Shown here in pieces: positions 7,011-46,612 of a stretch of 57,940 nucleotides of DNA. A model generated the notes under the pieces. That model was not told where the DNA came from and made no database searches. It saw nothing but the letters and a program-made list of their open reading frames with translations. The translations under genes and the position numbers were made by a program. The DNA is from Symploca sp. SIO1C2 (lineage in GTDB: Bacteria; Cyanobacteriota; Cyanobacteriia; Cyanobacteriales; Coleofasciculaceae). Location: NCBI GenBank assembly GCA_010672925.1, contig JAAHFP010000040.1, positions 1 to 57,940 on the forward strand, in the 5' to 3' direction. How positions within the stretch are numbered: the first letter of the stretch is position 1; every line of letters begins with the position of its first letter.

Positions 7011-7531
7011 GTGGAGAAAATCCTTGCTGATACTATTCTATATCTCTAAAAATTTTACCACAGCGAAAACATAGGTTCTCAACAGGTGGACAGAAATAAG
7101 CGCCAGTGGATTATACAGGTTTTGAAGGCATCAAATTGTTATCTGGCAAGCATCTTGGCTAAACCCAGCCTGGTAAATTTACTTTAAGTTTTTTTCATTT
7201 ACCTACTTAAAAATATACATTTAGATACAAATTGCTTTAGAGGAATCTATGCTATTGACCGATATGACCGACTAAGGAATAATCTGAAAAAAGGAACCGC
7301 CCGAACGTAGTCGGGCGGAGTGTGGTGTGAGGAGTGAACGGAAACATTTGTCTCCGCTTTCTCTATTGTAAGCGAGAGCTTAATTTTTACCAGTCTTGTA
7401 GTAACTAATGCTGCATTTTTGATTGAATGGCTACAAACTGGGAAGGAAATGCTTGTTAAGCTAAATTCTTTTGTCAGAGAGTAGTGTAAGCAAAAGGGAA
7501 GGAGTAATACTCTCTAGACTTCCCTGTGAGC
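7011..7531. other. Intergenic region between thioredoxin and GuaB3 genes
   Basis: About 520 bp without a gene. Apart from the GC-rich hairpin at 7297-7318 it is AT-rich. It contains the thioredoxin promoter region and the 3' side of the GuaB3 gene. Confidence 0.5.
7297..7318. terminator. GC-rich hairpin
   Basis: Perfect inverted repeat CCGCCCGA/TCGGGCGG with loop ACGTAG. On the minus strand the stem is followed by TTCCTTTTTT, the pattern of an intrinsic terminator for the GuaB3 gene on that strand, although it sits about 210 bp past that gene's stop. Confidence 0.65.
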
Positions 7532-10434: not shown

Positions 10435-10443
10435 GTGATCTGA

Positions 10444-10589
10444 AGGCAGAAGGCAGAAGGCAGGAGGCAGAAGGCAGGAGGCAGGAGGCAGGAGGCAGGA
10501 GGCAGGAGGCAGAAGGCAGGAGGGAAGACATTTGACAAATGACAAATAACAAACAACAAATAACAAACAACAAATAACAAATAACAAAC
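10444..10589. repeat. Two adjacent heptanucleotide arrays before obgE
   Basis: About twelve units of GGCAGAA/GGCAGGA run to about 10530, followed by about eight units of ACAAATA/ACAAACA that end one base before the obgE start codon. The whole space between the two genes is filled by repeats, so the obgE leader contains them. Confidence 0.92.
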
Positions 10590-10590
10590 C

Positions 10591-11619
10591 ATGCAATTTG
10601 TTGACTTGGCAGAAATTGAAGTGGTAGCTGGGAAGGGTGGTGATGGTATCGTTGCCTTTAGGCGGGAGAAGTATGTGCCTGCAGGGGGACCGGCTGGTGG
10701 TAATGGAGGATGGGGTGGCAATGTTATCTTAGCCGCTGTAGAAAACCTGCAAACTTTGCTGGATTTTAAGTATAATCACTGTTTTCAAGCAGAGAATGGT
10801 AAGCGGGGGGGACCCAATAATTGTACTGGAGCAAATGGAAGCGATCGCATAATTGAGGTTCCCTGTGGTACTTCTGTCTATAACTCTGATACTGGTGAAC
10901 TTATCACCGATTTGGTGCAGTCAGGTCAAACTTTTTGTGTCGCGAAGGGGGGCAAAGGAGGCTTGGGCAACAAGCATTTCTTGAGCAATCGTAATCGGGC
11001 ACCGGAGTATGCTTTACCAGGACTACCGGGAGAGGAACTAAAGCTGCGTTTGGAGTTGAAGCTACTAGCGGAAGTGGGCATTATTGGTTTACCGAATGCA
11101 GGTAAGTCTACCTTAATTTCTTCTCTCTCCGCAGCACGTCCCAAGGTAGCAAACTATCCTTTTACTACTTTGGTGCCCAATTTGGGGGTTGTGCGTAAAC
11201 CCAGTGGTGACGGCACGGTTTTTGCTGATATTCCTGGATTAATTGCTGGTGCTCATCTTGGTACTGGTTTAGGTCATGATTTTCTACGGCATATTGAGCG
11301 GACTCGTATCTTGGTTCACTTGATTGATGCTACAGATTTAGACCCTATTGCTAACTATCAAACAATTCAACAAGAGTTGCAAGCTTACGGGCGAGGGTTA
11401 ATGGAACGTCCTCAAATTCTTGCCCTCAATAAAGTGGATGCTGTGGATGCAGAAACTGTAGATGAGTTGACTACGGAACTCAATCAACTGACTCAAGTAC
11501 CGGTTTTCTCAATTTCAGCAGTGGCGAAAATTGGTTTAGATTCTCTGTTACAGAAAATCTGGCTGTCTTTAGATCAGTTATTGCCAGACATCTCCAAAAA
11601 CTGGAAAGATGCTCAGTGA
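10591..11619 (+). CDS. obgE: Obg-family GTPase (ribosome assembly)
   Basis: A 342-residue essential GTPase acting in 50S ribosomal subunit maturation and stress signalling. The N-terminal glycine-rich Obg fold (residues 1-158; [20 protein letters not shown]) precedes the G domain with G1 [10 protein letters not shown]3 DIPGLI, G4 NKVD and G5 SA. It lacks the C-terminal OCT domain of longer bacterial forms, as is common in cyanobacteria. No Shine-Dalgarno sequence is visible because a heptamer array abuts the ATG. Confidence 0.97.
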
Positions 11620-11944: not shown

Positions 11945-11969
11945 CTTTGATATAGGAAAGTAAAATTTG

Positions 11970-13301
11970 ATGACGGACACAGTTCCCGACTTTACAATTT
12001 TAGGAGCAGGCTTAGCTGGACCTTTAATGGCACTCTACCTCGCCCAAGAGGGGTATCGTGTCGATGTGTATGAAAAACGCCCAGATCCGCGAACAAATGG
12101 TGTAGCTCAAGGCAAATCAATCAATCTAGCACTTTCTAAGCGAGCTTTATTTGCCCTTGAAGAAGTAGGACTGGTTGATGAAGTAATGCAACAAGCTATA
12201 CCGATGCGAGGCAGAATGCTCCATTCCCAAACAGGTAAGCTTTCTTTTCAAACTTACGGTATTAATGATCAAGAAGTTTTAAATTCAATTTCAAGATCGC
12301 TTTTAAATATCACTTTGCTGAAGGCGGCAGAAAAAGTAAATGGCATCAGATTTTTTTTTGATCAACAAGTAGAAAAAATCAACCTACAAGAGAAGAGTTG
12401 TCAGCTTGCAGATAGTAATAGTAAACAACAAGAGCTTGTGCAATTTCAAACTCTTGTGGGGGCTGATGGTGCTTTCTCTGTTTTACGTTATCATATGCAA
12501 AAGCTGGATCGTTTTAACTATGAACAATATTTCATTGATCACGGTTACAAGGAGCTCGTAATTCCAGCTCAGGCTAATGGTGAATTTGCTCTAGATAAGA
12601 ACGCCCTTCATATTTGGCCTAGAGGTGATTTTATGCTCATTGCACTCCCTAATTTAGATAGTTCTTTTACTTGCACCTTGTTCGCACCATTTCAAGGGAA
12701 AAATAGTTTCTCATCCCTCACCCAAGCTCAAGAAGTTGAAGACTATTTCAAAACTTTATTTCCTGATGTGTTACCCTTGGCTCCAACATTAATCTCAGAC
12801 TTTTTTAACAACCCAACTGGCTCACTGGTTTCGATAAAGTGTTACCCTTGGTCTTATCAAGATCAAGCAATTTTGATTGGTGATGCTTGTCATGCAACCG
12901 TACCTTTTTATGGACAAGGCATTAATGCGGGGTTTGAAGATTGTACTTTACTAACTCAGTTTATTAAAAAGCATAGTGATGACCTAGAATTGGCTTTCCA
13001 AGAATATCAGCTTTCTAGAAAAGTAGATACTGATACGCTAGCGGAAATATCTTTTAGTAATTATATTGAAATGCGTGATTCTGTTAGATCACCTCTGTTT
13101 TTGGCTCGAAGGTTGATAGAAAACTTATTCCATAAGTTATTCCCACAAAGGTTTTATCCACTACATTCTATTGTGAGCTTCACCAGAACACCTTATTCTC
13201 AAGCAGTCCAACATGTTAGGAACCAATACAGCATTATTGGTCTCGCTCTTAGTATTGCACTCCTCGTTGGTTTTGTCAAAGTATTAAAAACATTACATTA
13301 G
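11970..13301 (+). CDS. kmo: Kynurenine 3-monooxygenase
   Basis: A 443-residue FAD-dependent aromatic hydroxylase converting L-kynurenine to 3-hydroxykynurenine with NADPH and O2. The dinucleotide motif FTILGAGLAGPLMALYLAQE starts near residue 6; the second FAD motif GDACHATVPFYGQGINAGFE and the kynurenine monooxygenase hallmark EKRPDPR are present. A hydrophobic C-terminal helix (GLALSIALLVGFVKVL) suggests membrane attachment as in eukaryotic enzymes. The ATG at 11970 is preferred over TTG three bases earlier, with AGGAAAG upstream. It is the first gene of a three-gene operon, 39 bp before the dioxygenase. Confidence 0.93.
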   Translation: MTDTVPDFTILGAGLAGPLMALYLAQEGYRVDVYEKRPDPRTNGVAQGKSINLALSKRALFALEEVGLVDEVMQQAIPMRGRMLHSQTGKLSFQTYGINDQEVLNSISRSLLNITLLKAAEKVNGIRFFFDQQVEKINLQEKSCQLADSNSKQQELVQFQTLVGADGAFSVLRYHMQKLDRFNYEQYFIDHGYKELVIPAQANGEFALDKNALHIWPRGDFMLIALPNLDSSFTCTLFAPFQGKNSFSSLTQAQEVEDYFKTLFPDVLPLAPTLISDFFNNPTGSLVSIKCYPWSYQDQAILIGDACHATVPFYGQGINAGFEDCTLLTQFIKKHSDDLELAFQEYQLSRKVDTDTLAEISFSNYIEMRDSVRSPLFLARRLIENLFHKLFPQRFYPLHSIVSFTRTPYSQAVQHVRNQYSIIGLALSIALLVGFVKVLKTLH

Positions 13302-13340
13302 AAATATTAACAACCTTTTTTTATAAGGAGCATAACAATC

Positions 13341-14123
13341 ATGGAACTTACCTATGCTAATTATCTGAAGCTAGAGAAATTACTTTGCCTCCAGGAACCG
13401 AAATCATCTCCCTATGAACATGATGAGATGCTTTTTATTATTATGCATCAGAACTCTGAACTTTGGCTCAAGCTAGTACTTTATGAAGTGGATAAAGTCA
13501 AGACAGATTTTTCATCAGGTAATCTTCATGGTGCTATTGCTACTTTACAGCGTATTAAAGCAATTATGAGGCTTCTGGTTAGTCAACTGGATATTATTGA
13601 AACGATGACCCCCCTGTCTTTTGCCAAGTTTCGGAATTGTCTAGGGGCTGCATCGGGTTTCCAATCCTACCAATTTCGTCAACTTGAATTTTCCTTAGGA
13701 TACAAGCGTGCAGAGACACTGAATTGTCATAAACATGAACCCGCTGTTTATGAAACTCTTTTAAAAGAACTCAAACAATATTCTCTGGTAGATCATTTTT
13801 ACAACTTTCTAGAATATTATGGTATTGCCATACCAGATAAACTCAGATCTAAAGAAATTTCTTCGTCTTCAGAACCTAACAAAACACTTCAACAAGAGAT
13901 TTTTCAGCTTTATCACCAACACCCAGAACTAGTACTACTCTTTGAGTTAATGATTGACTTTGATAAAGAATTACAGCAATGGCGGTATCGTCATATCAAA
14001 GTGGCAGAAAGAATTATTGGCAATAAGGGAGGAACCGGTGGTTCATTAGGAGTTAAGTTTTTAAAAGGCTCTCTTTTTAAAGCTGTTTTTCCAGATCTAT
14101 GGGCTATCCGAGATGAATTTTGA
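13341..14123 (+). CDS. kynA: Tryptophan 2,3-dioxygenase
   Basis: A 260-residue haem enzyme opening the indole ring of L-tryptophan to N-formylkynurenine. Family motifs are intact: HDEMLFIIMHQNSELWLKL with active-site His36, SGFQSYQFRQLEFSLGYK with the substrate-carboxylate Arg, and WRYRHIKVAERIIGNKGG, with the proximal haem His, followed by TGGSLGVKFL. AAGGAG lies upstream of the ATG. Its 3' end overlaps the longest possible reading frame of the formamidase gene by 11 bp. It supplies the first step of the pathway although it is second in gene order. Confidence 0.95.
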   Translation: MELTYANYLKLEKLLCLQEPKSSPYEHDEMLFIIMHQNSELWLKLVLYEVDKVKTDFSSGNLHGAIATLQRIKAIMRLLVSQLDIIETMTPLSFAKFRNCLGAASGFQSYQFRQLEFSLGYKRAETLNCHKHEPAVYETLLKELKQYSLVDHFYNFLEYYGIAIPDKLRSKEISSSSEPNKTLQQEIFQLYHQHPELVLLFELMIDFDKELQQWRYRHIKVAERIIGNKGGTGGSLGVKFLKGSLFKAVFPDLWAIRDEF

Positions 14124-14133
14124 GAGAGTTTCT

Positions 14134-14748
14134 ATGATTTATGATATTACCCCTCTAATTTCAGATAAGATAAAAGTCTGGCCTGGAGATACTCCCCCGA
14201 GTCGAGATATTCTTTGTGATCTTCAAAAAGGAGATAATATTACCCTTTCCTCACTTCATACTACGGTTCATTTGGGTGCTCATGCTGACGCACCTAATCA
14301 TTATTCAGCACAAGGTATTGATATTGCAACACGTTCTCTTGACTATTACTTAGGTACTTGCCAGGTTGTTAAAGTGAAGGCTGTAAGAGGTCAACAGATT
14401 TTACCGACACAAATTCACGTACCGATCCAAGCAAAGCGTATTCTTTTTTCTACCAATACTTACCCTAATCCTAACTTATTTAATCTAGATTTTGCTGCTT
14501 TATCACCAGAATTAATTGAAATGCTCCATAAGCAGGGCGTCATTACAGTTGGTATTGATACACCTAGTATTGATCTGTTTGCATCAAAAGATTTGCCTTC
14601 ACATCAAGCAATATTTTACTACGACATGGCAGTATTAGAAGGACTTGTACTGGAAAATGTTCCAGAAGGGTGTTACGAGCTGATTGCGCTTCCACTGAAG
14701 TTAAAAGATTTTGATGCGAGTCCTGTTAGAGCAATACTTCGAGATTGA
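14134..14748 (+). CDS. kynB: Kynurenine formamidase (cyclase family)
   Basis: A 204-residue metal-dependent hydrolase turning N-formylkynurenine into kynurenine and formate. The metal-binding motif HLGAHADAPNH (His46, His50, Asp52, His56) is complete and GIDTPSIDL with the later SHQ and E residues fit KynB. The ATG at 14134 is preferred because GAGAGAG lies just before it; an upstream in-frame ATG at 14113 would overlap tryptophan dioxygenase by 11 bp and add seven residues. With its two neighbours it forms a complete route from tryptophan to 3-hydroxykynurenine. Confidence 0.92.
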   Translation: MIYDITPLISDKIKVWPGDTPPSRDILCDLQKGDNITLSSLHTTVHLGAHADAPNHYSAQGIDIATRSLDYYLGTCQVVKVKAVRGQQILPTQIHVPIQAKRILFSTNTYPNPNLFNLDFAALSPELIEMLHKQGVITVGIDTPSIDLFASKDLPSHQAIFYYDMAVLEGLVLENVPEGCYELIALPLKLKDFDASPVRAILRD

Positions 14749-14750
14749 CA

Positions 14751-14824
14751 TTACTCGTTACTTGTTACTTGTTACTTGTTACTTATTCAGCAAGCCCTAT
14801 TTATGTACTGGTGCAAGATATGAC
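14751..14824. repeat. TTACTTG heptamer array and IS-end-like sequence
   Basis: About five units of TTACTTG (14751-14783) are followed by ACTTATTCAGCAAGCCCTA, which matches the right end of the element at 37598-37799, and by GTACTGGTGCAAGATATGAC (14805-14824), nearly identical to 56982-57001, which lies in front of the IS1634-type pseudogene. It appears to be scar sequence. Confidence 0.65.
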
Positions 14825-14856
14825 TTAGATGTAACCTAACTGTAGACAGTTAATCT

Positions 14857-16002
14857 ATGCAAACAAACCAGATTTGTATGACATCAGCTCCTTTGCCCAT
14901 TTGCATTACCTTGGGAACTCGCCCTGAAGCAATTAAACTAGCACCAGTTATCCAGCAGTTCCGACGTTGCGATGCTTTTGATACTCAGGTAATTTTAACG
15001 GGTCAGCATCGGGAGATGGTGGAGCAAGTAATGCAGTTATTTGAGCTGAGTGCCGACAGGGATTTAGCCATTATGCAAGCTAAGCAAACTCTGACGGATA
15101 TTACTTGTTGGAGTTTACGGGGACTCGAAACTGTATTTAAGGAAATTCAGCCTAAGCTAGTTATTGTCCAAGGAGATACCACCACCGCTTTTGCTGCTAC
15201 CTTGGCGGCATTTTACCAAAAAATCCCAGTTGGTCATGTGGAAGCGGGATTACGTACCGATGATTTATTTAATCCTTACCCAGAAGAAGCAAATCGACGT
15301 TTGATTTCCCAACTGGCTCAACTAAATTTTGCTCCTACTCCCTTGGCCGTGGCAAATTTGCAGCAGTCAGGAATTGTGGGAGAAATCCACCAGACTGGTA
15401 ATACAGTAATTGATGCTCTACTAACGGTGGCAGAGAGTCAACCCCCTTGTGAAGTTAATGGCTTGGATTGGGGAAAGTACCGTACCCTCTTGGCAACGGT
15501 TCATCGACGGGAGAATTGGGGAAAACCCTTAGAAGATATTGCTCAAGGATTTTTGACCATTTTAGATAAATTTCCCGATACTGCTTTACTCCTACCCCTG
15601 CACCGCAACCCCACCGTTAGGGAACCGCTGCAAGCATCTTTGAGTCACCACCCCAGGGTATTTTTGACCGAACCTCTAGATTATGCTGAACTAGTAGGAG
15701 CGATCGCGCGTTGTCATTTACTGCTAACAGATTCTGGAGGATTGCAGGAAGAAGCACCAAGTTTAGGGAAGCCGGTTTTGGTGTTGCGGGAGACTACAGA
15801 AAGACCAGAAGCTATTGATGCTGGTACTGCGAAGTTAGTGGGAACTAATCCAACACAGATTGTAGCCGCAGCTAGCGAGTTACTTGGGGATACAGCAGCT
15901 TATCAGGAAATGGCCACAGCAATTAATCCTTTTGGAGACGGTCATGCAGCAGAAAGGATTTTGAAGATTGTCGATCATTATTTGGGAAAGGAGGGGGAGT
16001 AG
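14857..16002 (+). CDS. wecB: UDP-N-acetylglucosamine 2-epimerase
   Basis: A 381-residue cytosolic enzyme interconverting UDP-GlcNAc and UDP-ManNAc for surface polysaccharide. Motifs LGTRPEAIKLAPVI near the N-terminus, VQGDTTTAFAAT, GHVEAGLRT, TVHRRENWG and DSGGLQEEAPSLGKPVLVLR are all in place, with normal length. An alternative ATG lies seven codons in. The stop codon is immediately followed by the start codon of the AbgT gene. Confidence 0.95.
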   Translation: MQTNQICMTSAPLPICITLGTRPEAIKLAPVIQQFRRCDAFDTQVILTGQHREMVEQVMQLFELSADRDLAIMQAKQTLTDITCWSLRGLETVFKEIQPKLVIVQGDTTTAFAATLAAFYQKIPVGHVEAGLRTDDLFNPYPEEANRRLISQLAQLNFAPTPLAVANLQQSGIVGEIHQTGNTVIDALLTVAESQPPCEVNGLDWGKYRTLLATVHRRENWGKPLEDIAQGFLTILDKFPDTALLLPLHRNPTVREPLQASLSHHPRVFLTEPLDYAELVGAIARCHLLLTDSGGLQEEAPSLGKPVLVLRETTERPEAIDAGTAKLVGTNPTQIVAAASELLGDTAAYQEMATAINPFGDGHAAERILKIVDHYLGKEGE

Positions 16003-17526
16003 ATGAGAAGCAATCCCAAAAAAAACTTTATTGCCTCGATTCTACAGTGGGTGGAAAACGTCGGTAATCGTCTGCCGGATCCTGTCACGATCTTTATTAT
16101 TCTGTGTTTCACCCTCATTATAGTAAGTGCGATCGCTAGTGCCATGGGAGTGTCGGTTACTCATCCCGGCACCAAAGAAACTATCGAAGCAGTTTCTATC
16201 CTGACTCCCAACGGCATTCGTCGCATTGTCAGCGAGGCTGTGACTAATTTTGTCACCTTTCCTCCACTAGGGGTTGTCTTAGTAGCAATTTTGGGTTTTG
16301 GGCTGGCAGAATATACAGGACTTCTGGGGGCAATTCTGCGGCAGGGAGTTTTGATTACCCCGGCGCGGTTGATTACCCCCGTAATTGTGTTTATTGGTGT
16401 GATGGCAAACCTGGCATCAGATGCTGGTTATGTAATTCTGCCTCCCTTAGCTGCTTTAGTCTTTCTCTCTTTTGGTAAACACCCATTAGCAGGATTAGCT
16501 GCTGCTTTTGCTGGAGTTGCTGGAGGGTTTAGTGCTAATTTGCTAGTTAACTCCCTTGACCCTTTACTTTCAGGGATTACCCAAAGTGGTGCTCAATTAA
16601 TTGATGCTAACTACACCGTCGATGCCACCGCCAACTATTATTTTATGGCAGTGTCCACCCTGCTGATTACCTTATTGGGTTGGTGGGTAACTGAGAATAT
16701 TGTGATACCTCGCTTAGGTACTTATCAAGCTTCAGAAGCTGTTGATTTTTCCCTGGAAACTTTAACCGCAGCGGAACAAAAAGGCTTAAGATGGGCAGGT
16801 TATTCCTTAGCCGCCTTAATTGGGCTGTTGATGGTATTAGTCCTACCGCCTCAAGGAATTCTCCGACAGCCAGAGACTTTCACTATTATCCCCTCCCCCT
16901 TTATCACCGGTATTGTATTTATCACTACTTTAGTATTTTTGATTCTGGGCATTGCCTATGGCTTAGGAGCAGGAACAATTAAAAGTGATAAAGATGCGGT
17001 CAAAGGAATGACCTCGTCTATGAGTGGGATGGGGTATTACCTAGTACTTTCCTTTTTTATGGCTCAATTTGTTGCCTATTTTAGTTGGAGCAACTTAGGG
17101 CTGATTATGGCAATTTCGGGAGCGGAATTTTTACAAGGGACGGGATTAGCTGGGATTCCGTTACTGTTGGGCTTGATTATTCTGAGTGGATTTATCAATC
17201 TGTTTATTGGTTCAGCTTCGGGAAAATGGTCAATTATGGCCCCTGTGTTTGTACCAATGTTGATGTTATTGGACTATTCTCCTGAGTTGACTCAACTGGT
17301 TTATCGAATTGGGGACTCTAGTACTAATATGATTACACCACTGTTGGCTTATTTTCCCCTGATTGTGGCTTCTGGGCAAAAATATGACCAAAGTTTGGGT
17401 TTGGGAACTTTGATTGCGATGATGCTGCCCTATTCGGTAGCTTTTCTTCTAGGATGGTCAATTTTGTTCATCTTTTGGTTAATTTTGGGACTACCTTTGG
17501 GGCCTGGAGTATCTACTTATTTGTAA
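16003..17526 (+). CDS. AbgT-family transporter
   Basis: A 507-residue inner-membrane transporter with about 11-13 hydrophobic segments. Family landmarks include LPDPVTIFIILC near the start, ANLASDAGYVILPPLAAL, SGFINLFIGSASGKWSIMAP and GDSSTNMITPLLAYFPLIV. AbgT proteins import p-aminobenzoyl-glutamate or export sulfonamide-like antimetabolites using a cation gradient. Its ATG follows the upstream stop codon directly, and AAAGGAGGGGG inside the end of the epimerase gene serves as ribosome-binding site. The metabolic link between the two is unclear. Confidence 0.93.
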   Translation: MRSNPKKNFIASILQWVENVGNRLPDPVTIFIILCFTLIIVSAIASAMGVSVTHPGTKETIEAVSILTPNGIRRIVSEAVTNFVTFPPLGVVLVAILGFGLAEYTGLLGAILRQGVLITPARLITPVIVFIGVMANLASDAGYVILPPLAALVFLSFGKHPLAGLAAAFAGVAGGFSANLLVNSLDPLLSGITQSGAQLIDANYTVDATANYYFMAVSTLLITLLGWWVTENIVIPRLGTYQASEAVDFSLETLTAAEQKGLRWAGYSLAALIGLLMVLVLPPQGILRQPETFTIIPSPFITGIVFITTLVFLILGIAYGLGAGTIKSDKDAVKGMTSSMSGMGYYLVLSFFMAQFVAYFSWSNLGLIMAISGAEFLQGTGLAGIPLLLGLIILSGFINLFIGSASGKWSIMAPVFVPMLMLLDYSPELTQLVYRIGDSSTNMITPLLAYFPLIVASGQKYDQSLGLGTLIAMMLPYSVAFLLGWSILFIFWLILGLPLGPGVSTYL

Positions 17527-17552: not shown

Positions 17553-17990
17553 ATGGCTTTGTGGCGACTCTATTATCACCTGATTTGGGCAACTAAGAAT
17601 CGTCAACCTCTAATTAATCCTCAGCGAGAGGCTGAACTTTATCGCTACATCATTGCTAAGGCTGATGCTCATCGTTGTATTGTTCATGCTATTGGTGGGA
17701 TGGAAGAGCATATTCACCTAGTGGTTTCGATTCCTCCGGTACTGTCTATTGCTGATTTTGTCAAACAAATTAAGGGCAGTAGTGCTCATTATTTAAATAG
17801 TACTTTGGCTGCTGACTCAGATAAATTTGGTTGGCAAGAAGGATACGGTGTATTTTCCTTGGGAGGTAAGCAATTGGAGCAGGCGGTTAATTATGTTAAA
17901 AATCAGAAAGAACATCATCGACAGGGAACTGCAATCGCGTCTTTGGAGCAAGCTATTCGTCAAGATGATGCTCCGGGACGTTGGTATTAG
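17553..17990 (+). mobile_element. IS200-like Y1 transposase (TnpA)
   Basis: A 145-residue HUH single-strand transposase. The metal-binding HUH pair is His53-Ile-His55 in EEHIHLVVSIP and the nucleophile is probably Tyr114 in NYVKNQKEHH. The length is that of short IS200/IS605 TnpA or REP-associated proteins. No TnpB follows it and no clear end hairpins were found. It lies 26 bp after the AbgT gene and looks intact. Confidence 0.9.
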
Positions 17991-18254: not shown

Positions 18255-18513
18255 AATCACCCTTCTTTGTTTTTTTACTAGGCCAGTTTAGTTTACCAGA
18301 TTTTACTGATACTAAATCCGGTTTGCATACCCCCCTGATGTGCCATATTGTAGAGACGTTGCATGCAACGTCTCTACAGGGTTTTGCGGTTTATTCAAAA
18401 TGGGGGTGATTAACCTGGATTTGTTATGACTGGAGTTTAGACTATGACAAAATTGCCCAGTTTTCTTTTTAGCCAGGATGGGCATTAGCTTGGAAATGCA
18501 TCTCAAGGCTATT
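18255..18513. other. Intergenic region with dispersed repeats
   Basis: Holds TACTAAATCCGGTTTGCAT (18310-18328; a relative occurs near 49409) and the 30-bp palindrome at 18349-18378. No gene seen. Confidence 0.55.
18349..18378. repeat. 30-bp perfect palindrome
   Basis: Half-site TGTAGAGACGTTGCA followed directly by its exact complement. The same core, built on TAGAGACGTTGCATGC, is a well-known dispersed palindrome in Nostoc-type genomes. Here it sits between the secreted-peptide gene and the 3' end of the NACHT gene. Confidence 0.85.
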
Positions 18514-45397: not shown

Positions 45398-46612
45398 ATG
45401 AAAGCACGTTATCGCTACCGAATTTATCCAACAGTGGGGCAACAAATGGCACTAGCCAAGTTGTTTGGGTGTTGTCGTGTTGTTTTTAACGATGCTTTAG
45501 CTTTCTGTATTGAACAGTATCAAAAAGGAGAGAAAAAGCCGAAAAACGGAGAACTTCAGAAAAGATTTATTACTCAGGCGAAGAAAACTCTTGAACGCCA
45601 GTGGTTAACTGAAGTTTCTAATATTCCGCTGCAACAATCTCTCAATGATTTAGAGCAAGCTTATCAGAACTTTTTCAAGTCTTGCAAGGGACACAGAAAA
45701 GGTAAACCAGTTAGACCACCACGCTTTAAGAAACGTCATGCCAAGCAATCAGCAAGGTTCAGGCAAGGAGGGTTTAAAGTTACTCAAAACTTCGTTAAGT
45801 TGGCCAAGATTGGGAAAATCAAGATTGTCTGGTCTAGATCACTACCAGTACAACCGTCATCGGTCACTGTTATCAAGGATGCTGCCGGAAGATACTTTGT
45901 TAGCTTCGTTGTTGAGATAGCCTCCTGTGTCTTGCCCAAGACTGAAAACAGTGTTGGCATCGACCTGGGTATTGCTACTTTTGCCACCCTGGACAATGGT
46001 CAAAAAATCGATGCCCCTAAACCTTTGAAAAAACGCATCAATCGACTGCGTAGATTGAGCAAGAACCTATCCAGAAAAAACCGAGGCAGTAATCGGTATG
46101 AGCTGGCTAGAAAACGCAAAGCCAAACTGCAAGCTAAGCTCAAAGATACTCGCACAGATTTTCTGCACAAACTATCCACCCAGATAATCCATGAAAACCA
46201 AACGATTGTCTTGGAGGACTTGAATGTTGCAGGAATGCTCAAAAACCGAAAACTGTCGAGAGCTCTCAGCGATTTGGGTTGGCGACAATTCCGAACCTAT
46301 CTCGAAGGAAAAGCTGAAAAATACGGTCGTGAGTTTCGAGTAATCAGCCGTTGGGAGCCAACAAGTCAGACTTGTTCTTGCTGTGGATTCCGTGGTGGCA
46401 AACTCGATCTTTCCATCAGGGAATGGACTTGCCTAAACTGTGGCGCAACACACGACCGCGATATCAACGCCGCAAAAAACATCAAAGTCGCCGGGGGGCA
46501 CTCGGAGACTCAAACCGGACGTGGAGGAAAGCGTAAGACTTTCGTCAAGGAAGCAGTATCCTGTGAAACGTCAACCCAACGAGAGTACGTTCAGTTAGCG
46601 CTGTTCGACTAG
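45398..46612 (+). CDS. tnpB: IS605-family TnpB (RNA-guided nuclease), second copy
   Basis: A 404-residue protein different in sequence from the first TnpB. RuvC residues are Asp189 (VGIDLGI), Glu273 (IVLEDLN) and Asp355 (DRDINAAKNI); zinc ribbon cysteines are 326, 329, 345 and 348. All are intact. The 3' end and the hairpin beyond it are the expected omega-RNA region. C-terminal residues include a basic tail (GRGGKRKTFVKEAV). Confidence 0.96.
   Translation: MKARYRYRIYPTVGQQMALAKLFGCCRVVFNDALAFCIEQYQKGEKKPKNGELQKRFITQAKKTLERQWLTEVSNIPLQQSLNDLEQAYQNFFKSCKGHRKGKPVRPPRFKKRHAKQSARFRQGGFKVTQNFVKLAKIGKIKIVWSRSLPVQPSSVTVIKDAAGRYFVSFVVEIASCVLPKTENSVGIDLGIATFATLDNGQKIDAPKPLKKRINRLRRLSKNLSRKNRGSNRYELARKRKAKLQAKLKDTRTDFLHKLSTQIIHENQTIVLEDLNVAGMLKNRKLSRALSDLGWRQFRTYLEGKAEKYGREFRVISRWEPTSQTCSCCGFRGGKLDLSIREWTCLNCGATHDRDINAAKNIKVAGGHSETQTGRGGKRKTFVKEAVSCETSTQREYVQLALFD

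Follow-up and report, generated by a model that had tools for sequence, protein, structure and literature searches.

Organization of the locus

Contig JAAHFP010000040.1 of the cyanobacterium Symploca sp. SIO1C2 carries, between positions 11970 and 14748, three intact plus-strand open reading frames (ORFs) that appear to form a small module for tryptophan breakdown, with 3-hydroxykynurenine as its predicted product. We refer to the whole contig of 57,940 nucleotides (C181) as the window, and to the genome from which it comes, an assembly of 8.67 Mb in 245 contigs that is 97.9% complete, as G000; G415 and G416 are the same-genus genomes. According to the ORF list and its translations, the module consists of kmo, tdo (kynA), and a kynB-type formamidase gene (kfa), as follows:

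11970 to 13301, + strand: kmo, putative FAD-dependent kynurenine 3-monooxygenase (KMO), 443 amino acids from the ATG at 11970; assigned from its best solved relatives, substrate-site residues, and tree
13341 to 14123, + strand: tdo/kynA, putative tryptophan 2,3-dioxygenase (TDO), 260 amino acids; assigned from TIGR03036, PF03301, 2nw7, and haem histidines
14113 to 14748, + strand: kfa/kynB, putative kynurenine formamidase (KFA), 211 amino acids; assigned from TIGR03035, 4cog, and a metal motif

The ATG start of kmo was read from the sequence, as the ORF list begins at a TTG at 11967. A gap of 39 bp separates kmo from tdo, and tdo overlaps kfa by 11 bp. A first-pass annotation of this DNA had given the three genes these names and noted their tight packing, and the ORFs, solved relatives, and residues described below confirm both points.

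Identity of the three enzymes

The ten best among 55 solved relatives of the window KMO are all named kynurenine 3-monooxygenase, the top one being 6lkd (359 bits, E 2.5e-106). In an alignment of 29 proteins, it shares an Arg, a Tyr, an Asn, a Glu, and a later Asn-Tyr with 6lkd and 5x68, which we take to be mammalian KMOs, and these positions presumably form the substrate site. The last of them varies among likely true KMOs, since the KMOs linked to a kynureninase gene (kynU) elsewhere in the phylum have Asn-Phe where the window KMO has Asn-Tyr. A hydrophobic stretch was also seen by eye at the C-terminus. In a tree of 29 rows, from which G457 (a broken frame with two TGA codons) and 6 of the 14 VioC-like loci were left out, the window protein and the KMO side split from eight VioC-like rows at 100/100 support, and the KMO-like enzymes of cyanobacterial clusters also fell on the KMO side. 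The window KMO forms a long branch on that side, with the proteins of G016 and G001 as its nearest neighbors at modest support (89/87); its best identity is 47% in tree columns and 49% by tblastn. Collectively, these data indicate that it probably hydroxylates kynurenine at position 3, a reaction that we take from knowledge of the family.

The TDO matches the solved relative 2nw7 (E 3.4e-53), with alignment of the distal and proximal histidines that we take to be haem ligands, and it scores 185.6 bits against PF03301, above the cut-off of 34.9. For the KFA, the solved kynurenine formamidase 4cog is a match at E 9.6e-44, and the sequence HLGAHADAPNH, presumably the metal motif, aligns with HTGAHCDAPLH; the protein also qualifies as a member of the Pfam Cyclase family (PF04199). 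We take them as a putative TDO and KFA on the basis of family, residues, and gene company.

The downstream branch and NAD synthesis

The kynureninase model TIGR01814 had no match in G000 at E 0.001, and 10 of 14 control genomes were positive, with 2 of them above the cut-off. The sensitivity of this model can be gauged from kynureninase-like proteins encoded beside other TDO genes, which it matched at E 1.3e-30 and 1.5e-26, and from a desulfurase-like protein matched at 1.5e-11. The 3-hydroxyanthranilate dioxygenase (HAO) model PF06052 likewise found nothing in G000 at E 0.1, and 5 of the 10 genomes in the same search scored above the cut-off; an earlier search, also blank in G000, had no positive control and was therefore repeated with these 10 genomes. 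On the other hand, G000 contains nadA (399.7 bits) and two L-aspartate oxidase (nadB) genes (635.5 and 581 bits), all above cut-off. The nadB genes lie at C124:30850-32403 and C79:14085-15638, and nadA lies within 5 kb of one of them on contig C79.

Since neither kynU nor HAO was found and nadA and nadB are present, NAD can derive from aspartate, and the tryptophan branch would stop at 3-hydroxykynurenine. This compound, already named as the end product in the first-pass annotation, is supported as a prediction by the three enzymes and by the lack of kynU and HAO in the assembly. The same annotation had remarked that neither of these genes adjoins the module. This remark holds, and the two genes went undetected in the remainder of the assembly as well.

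KMO and TDO genes across the phylum

KMO-like matches at E 1e-40 were found in 21 of 386 phylum genomes, comprising G000, six genomes from outside its order (45-49% identity), and 14 from the same order or family (27-31%). In all six distant phylum-mates, kynU directly precedes kmo (in G004, kynU is matched by two overlapping segments that lie in different reading frames, and the gene may be broken), and five of the six have HAO, the exception being G038, which is 73% complete. Among five tested kynU-kmo genomes, nadA is absent from G010, G018, and G004 and present in G016 and G001. Judging by gene content, the kynurenine pathway to NAD often, but not always, replaces nadA in these phylum-mates, and G000 is the reverse case.

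TDO matches at E 1e-15 are confined to 12 of the 386 genomes and, within the window's order, to G000 and G197. At E 1e-10, five of 57 relatives had a match: besides G000 and G197, these were three members of the family, with 29-34% identity. As a separate observation, the divergent TDO gene of the family member G424 (L136 1574-3489) adjoins a gene for a kynureninase-like protein, which scores below the TIGR01814 cut-off (E 1.3e-30). A scan of named genomes for a close KMO returned a single locus, from Cytophagales (L001, 48%), and says little about distribution because its peptide patterns derive from a single protein.

A probable second kind of KMO-like gene in cyanobacteria

In a denser search of the order, 9 of 388 genomes had a KMO match at E 1e-70; one is G000, and the matches of the other eight have 41-46% identity. 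In the alignment, six of these eight retain the substrate-site Arg, Tyr, Asn, and Glu but have His-Phe in place of Asn-Tyr or Asn-Phe, and they form a 100/100 clade separate from the window KMO. The enzyme of G468 retains Asn-Tyr, and that of G457 was left out of the alignment. In the eight aligned VioC-like rows, more of the substrate-site residues are lost, including the Tyr. A tblastn search (E 0.001) of the 23-80 kb around each of the eight genes (stretches that miss 3 kb of the G553 contig and a few 100-bp gaps) found neither TDO nor KFA, kynureninase, or HAO, and a genome-wide TDO search of three of the eight genomes (G397, G417, and G426) was negative at E 1e-10.

The gene company of the eight varies. 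In G397 (L150), the KMO-like gene lies with genes for a tryptophan halogenase, a class I/II aminotransferase, an O-methyltransferase, and ATP-grasp ligases, and with genes lacking a Pfam match; G627 (L154) has relatives of the G397 aminotransferase and of two unknown genes, together with frames that look halogenase- and methyltransferase-like by eye. These two clusters possibly serve halogenated quinoline or anthranilate chemistry. One unknown gene of the G397/G627 cluster appears cupin-like by eye. The neighbors in G664 (L155) encode a P450, a tryptophanase-like lyase, two tryptophan-halogenase family proteins, DAHP synthase, and anthranilate synthase, and in G553 (L151) the three scanned genes are of halogenase-family, sulfotransferase, and methyltransferase type, the rest resembling G664 by eye. 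A peptide synthetase gene lies downstream of the KMO-like gene in G468 (L148), which G457 (L149) resembles by eye, although its frames are broken and two TGA codons interrupt its KMO frame. The KMO-like genes of G417 and G426 are each preceded by a gene for a small protein; the one in G417 was scanned and has no Pfam match. From their residues and surroundings, the eight look like another kind of KMO-like enzyme, which suggests that cyanobacterial KMO-type enzymes form at least two kinds and that a residue check may separate them.

Insertion between obgE and wecB

The module is bordered by the following features:

10591 to 11619, + strand: obgE, left flank of the insertion, outside the module; from family scan and empty-site comparison
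14751 to 14827, + strand: TTACTTG 7-base tandem repeats bordering the module on its 3' side; from sequence, with parts recurring elsewhere in G415
14857 to 16002, + strand: wecB, right flank of the insertion, outside the module; from family scan, present in 56 of 60 genomes of the order

In G415, obgE and wecB are adjacent, with 327 bp between the ORFs and without the module, and in G416 the end of obgE adjoins wecB and the module genes are likewise not there. Neither genome yielded a TDO at E 1e-10 or a KMO at E 1e-70. In addition, the module genes have a GC content of 36.7-38.4%, compared with 43.6-45.9% in the four nearest genes, and a third-position GC content of 23.7-28.7%, compared with 33.9-39.8%. 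On these sequence grounds, the module looks horizontally acquired; loss from both sister genomes instead of gain is less likely because the module is rare. In G416, other short repeats occupy the gap where the TTACTTG run sits in G000. The kfa-wecB interval gave no RNA fold signal (z -0.69).

As regards the donor, the first-pass annotation had raised transfer of kmo from eukaryotes, to be examined by phylogeny. The 29-row tree does not support this idea, as its two mammalian KMOs pair together, away from the window protein, and a eukaryotic donor was therefore rejected. Since the solved KMOs in the tree are just these two and one that we take to be from Pseudomonas, the tree points to no particular donor.

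The AbgT-family transporter and other features of the window

One further gene follows wecB directly:

16003 to 17526, + strand: abgT-family transporter gene, with an uncertain link to the module; PF03806 661 bits, NCBIfam models under cut-off

It starts at the base right after the wecB stop codon in G000, whereas its orthologues in G415 (C429) and G416 (C755), which are 87-88% identical, sit elsewhere. In G000, wecB thus has new neighbors on both sides. The placement of abgT could be due to chance beside an IS200-like transposase gene or to recruitment of a transporter. AbgT is named for p-aminobenzoyl-glutamate and kynurenine is o-aminobenzoyl-alanine, which is why one can imagine a five-gene unit in which abgT was recruited to export kynurenine or 3-hydroxykynurenine as a secreted sunscreen or chelator system; we regard this as a long shot. 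AbgT matches at E 1e-30 occurred in 13 of 386 genomes, and the other 12 loci have no wecB in their 1.5-kb flanks. A close KMO (44-49%) and AbgT coincide in G000 and G010 alone, and a VioC-like protein and AbgT coincide in G008, G251, and G284. On these counts, a phylum-wide link between AbgT and KMO was rejected.

Family scans covered 27 of the 43 window ORFs of at least 120 amino acids, and none of those scanned encodes a peptide synthetase, an aminotransferase, a methyltransferase, or an acid ligase. Other features of the window include the IS200-like transposase gene (17553-17990) and, shortly beyond it, a stretch of ~120 bp (18309-18431) that occurs many times over in G415 and G416. An intergenic short-unit repeat at 10442-10530 has dozens of matches across the searched genomes of the genus and family. 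A gene for the cyanobacterial small RNA Yfr1 lies at 7295-7357 on the minus strand, and a TnpB-family gene at 45398-46612 has its nearest relatives, among plasmids, in Planktothrix and Acaryochloris.

Proposed function and alternatives

We favor, with moderate confidence, the view that this is an acquired three-gene module whose end product is 3-hydroxykynurenine or derivatives of it that form without dedicated enzymes. The three genes would probably be co-transcribed. From what is known of the families, TDO would open the indole ring of tryptophan to give N-formylkynurenine, the formamidase would convert this to kynurenine, and KMO would convert kynurenine to 3-hydroxykynurenine. The host, which has no recognized enzymes for the route through 3-hydroxyanthranilate to NAD, would make NAD from aspartate instead. 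Even with no enzyme devoted to it, the product could then be transaminated and cyclized to xanthurenic acid or oxidized to a phenoxazinone-type pigment. More tentatively, and with the odds somewhat against it, the product may be a UV-A-absorbing, redox-active small molecule that is released or stored; a passage of PMC6165330 gives 3-hydroxykynurenine an absorption peak at 370 nm and names it among the UV-absorbing compounds of marine organisms. The first-pass annotation had likewise suggested that the product may go into a secondary metabolite or a pigment/UV screen. Genes, residues, absences, and insertion can be read directly in the DNA; the fate and use of the product are our inference. The module itself is real and well delimited, is probably functional, and would work like the opening part of xanthurenate-type pathways.

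Several observations weigh against this view. The best NCBIfam model for the KMO is VioC, at 208.7 bits and far below the cut-off of 760, and the TDO and KFA score under the equivalog cut-offs of their models (256.4 bits against 390.7 for TIGR03036 and 196.3 bits against 223.05 for TIGR03035), so these models do not certify the exact substrates. No other genome searched pairs adjacent TDO and close KMO genes without kynU, and selection on the module is therefore not measurable. Composition alone is a weak sign of acquisition because the 13 window genes used for comparison include two, both distant, that are nearly as GC-poor (38.1 and 38.8%). Promoter-like and terminator-like counts are near random (16 vs. 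13.1 in shuffles, standard deviation [sd] 4.4, and 8 vs. 4.9, sd 2.7, respectively).

Among the alternatives, an ordinary split NAD pathway with kynU and haaO elsewhere in the genome is highly improbable. An assembly of this completeness in 245 contigs does leave room for a gap, and G016 and G001 hold kynU, HAO, and nadA together, so both routes can coexist; however, kynU and HAO were not found despite working controls, and nadA and nadB are present, whereas nadA is absent from the three KMO-kynU-HAO genomes G010, G018, and G004. The first-pass annotation had offered NAD synthesis through genes elsewhere as one destination of the product, and it had named the finding of kynU and haaO with nadAB absent as what would make the pathway an ordinary one. 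Our searches found neither of the former and both nadA and nadB, and we have therefore rejected this explanation; from gene content, a module serving NAD synthesis is very unlikely. An incomplete catabolic transfer, i.e., a pathway fragment that lost or never had kynU and is useless as yet or on its way out, is also unlikely. It would fit with the kynU linkage of the related KMOs (6 of 6) and with the absence of the module from both same-genus genomes, but the three frames are open, the catalytic residues are kept, and the genes run kmo-tdo-kfa, unlike in the relatives, where kynU precedes kmo.

Two other explanations concern the further use of the product. A household aromatic aminotransferase might convert it to xanthurenic acid, a metal chelator, which would act as a siderophore or signal in a quinolobactin-like manner. 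According to PMC3053476, Pseudomonas fluorescens builds thioquinolobactin out of tryptophan with xanthurenic acid as an intermediate, and the G397 cluster described above, in part shared by G627, combines a KMO-like gene with aminotransferase, O-methyltransferase, tryptophan halogenase, and ATP-grasp genes. Yet the scanned window ORFs include no aminotransferase, methyltransferase, or ligase, and the G397 and G627 enzymes carry His-Phe with no TDO found nearby, which leaves this a minor possibility. We give a similarly low chance to the idea that a peptide synthetase or a pigment pathway, encoded at some other place in the 8.7-Mb genome, takes up 3-hydroxykynurenine or kynurenine as a building block. 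Peptide synthetase genes follow a KMO-like gene both in G468 and in Eleftheria terrae; against this, the scanned window ORFs contain no such genes (the synthetase search was not extended to the rest of the genome), and the 80 kb surrounding the KMO-like gene of G468 yielded no TDO. In this cyanobacterium, the kynurenine enzymes appear to have arrived without the branch to NAD while the genes for making NAD from aspartate were kept, so that either the product is itself the purpose or the acquisition serves none.

Comparison with known systems

In the titles and beginnings of abstracts that we searched, no such operon is described for cyanobacteria, although other papers, including those in subscription journals, may hold one. 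With the KMO-like and VioC-like monooxygenases of other cyanobacteria, the window KMO shares membership of the same FAD monooxygenase group, at 40-47% (eight genomes) or 27-31% (14 genomes) identity. The kynurenine route to NAD (TDO, KFA, KMO, KynU, and HAO), found in Bacteroidota and some other bacteria, has the same first three enzymes, and the window KMO is 44-49% identical to the kynU-linked KMOs of phylum-mates and to that of the Cytophagales genome. Unlike that route, G000 is without KynU or HAO and has NadA and NadB, whose absence is a usual but not strict mark of the kynurenine pathway to NAD (G016 and G001 have both).

Xanthurenic acid derives from 3-hydroxykynurenine, and in the quinolobactin (qbs) cluster aminotransferase, methyltransferase, and ligase genes stand beside the tryptophan genes, unlike in the scanned part of the window. 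The anthranilate branch of Pseudomonas aeruginosa (kynABU), in the account given in a section of PMC3053476, resembles the module in its KynA- and KynB-type enzymes (both under cut-off in G000); since the module has KMO in the place of KynU, it would lead to 3-hydroxykynurenine and not to anthranilate. The closest system by logic is the tryptophan-to-xanthurenate part of quinolobactin/thioquinolobactin synthesis in P. fluorescens ATCC 17400, as outlined in the same source, in which tryptophan is directed to xanthurenic acid and not to NAD.

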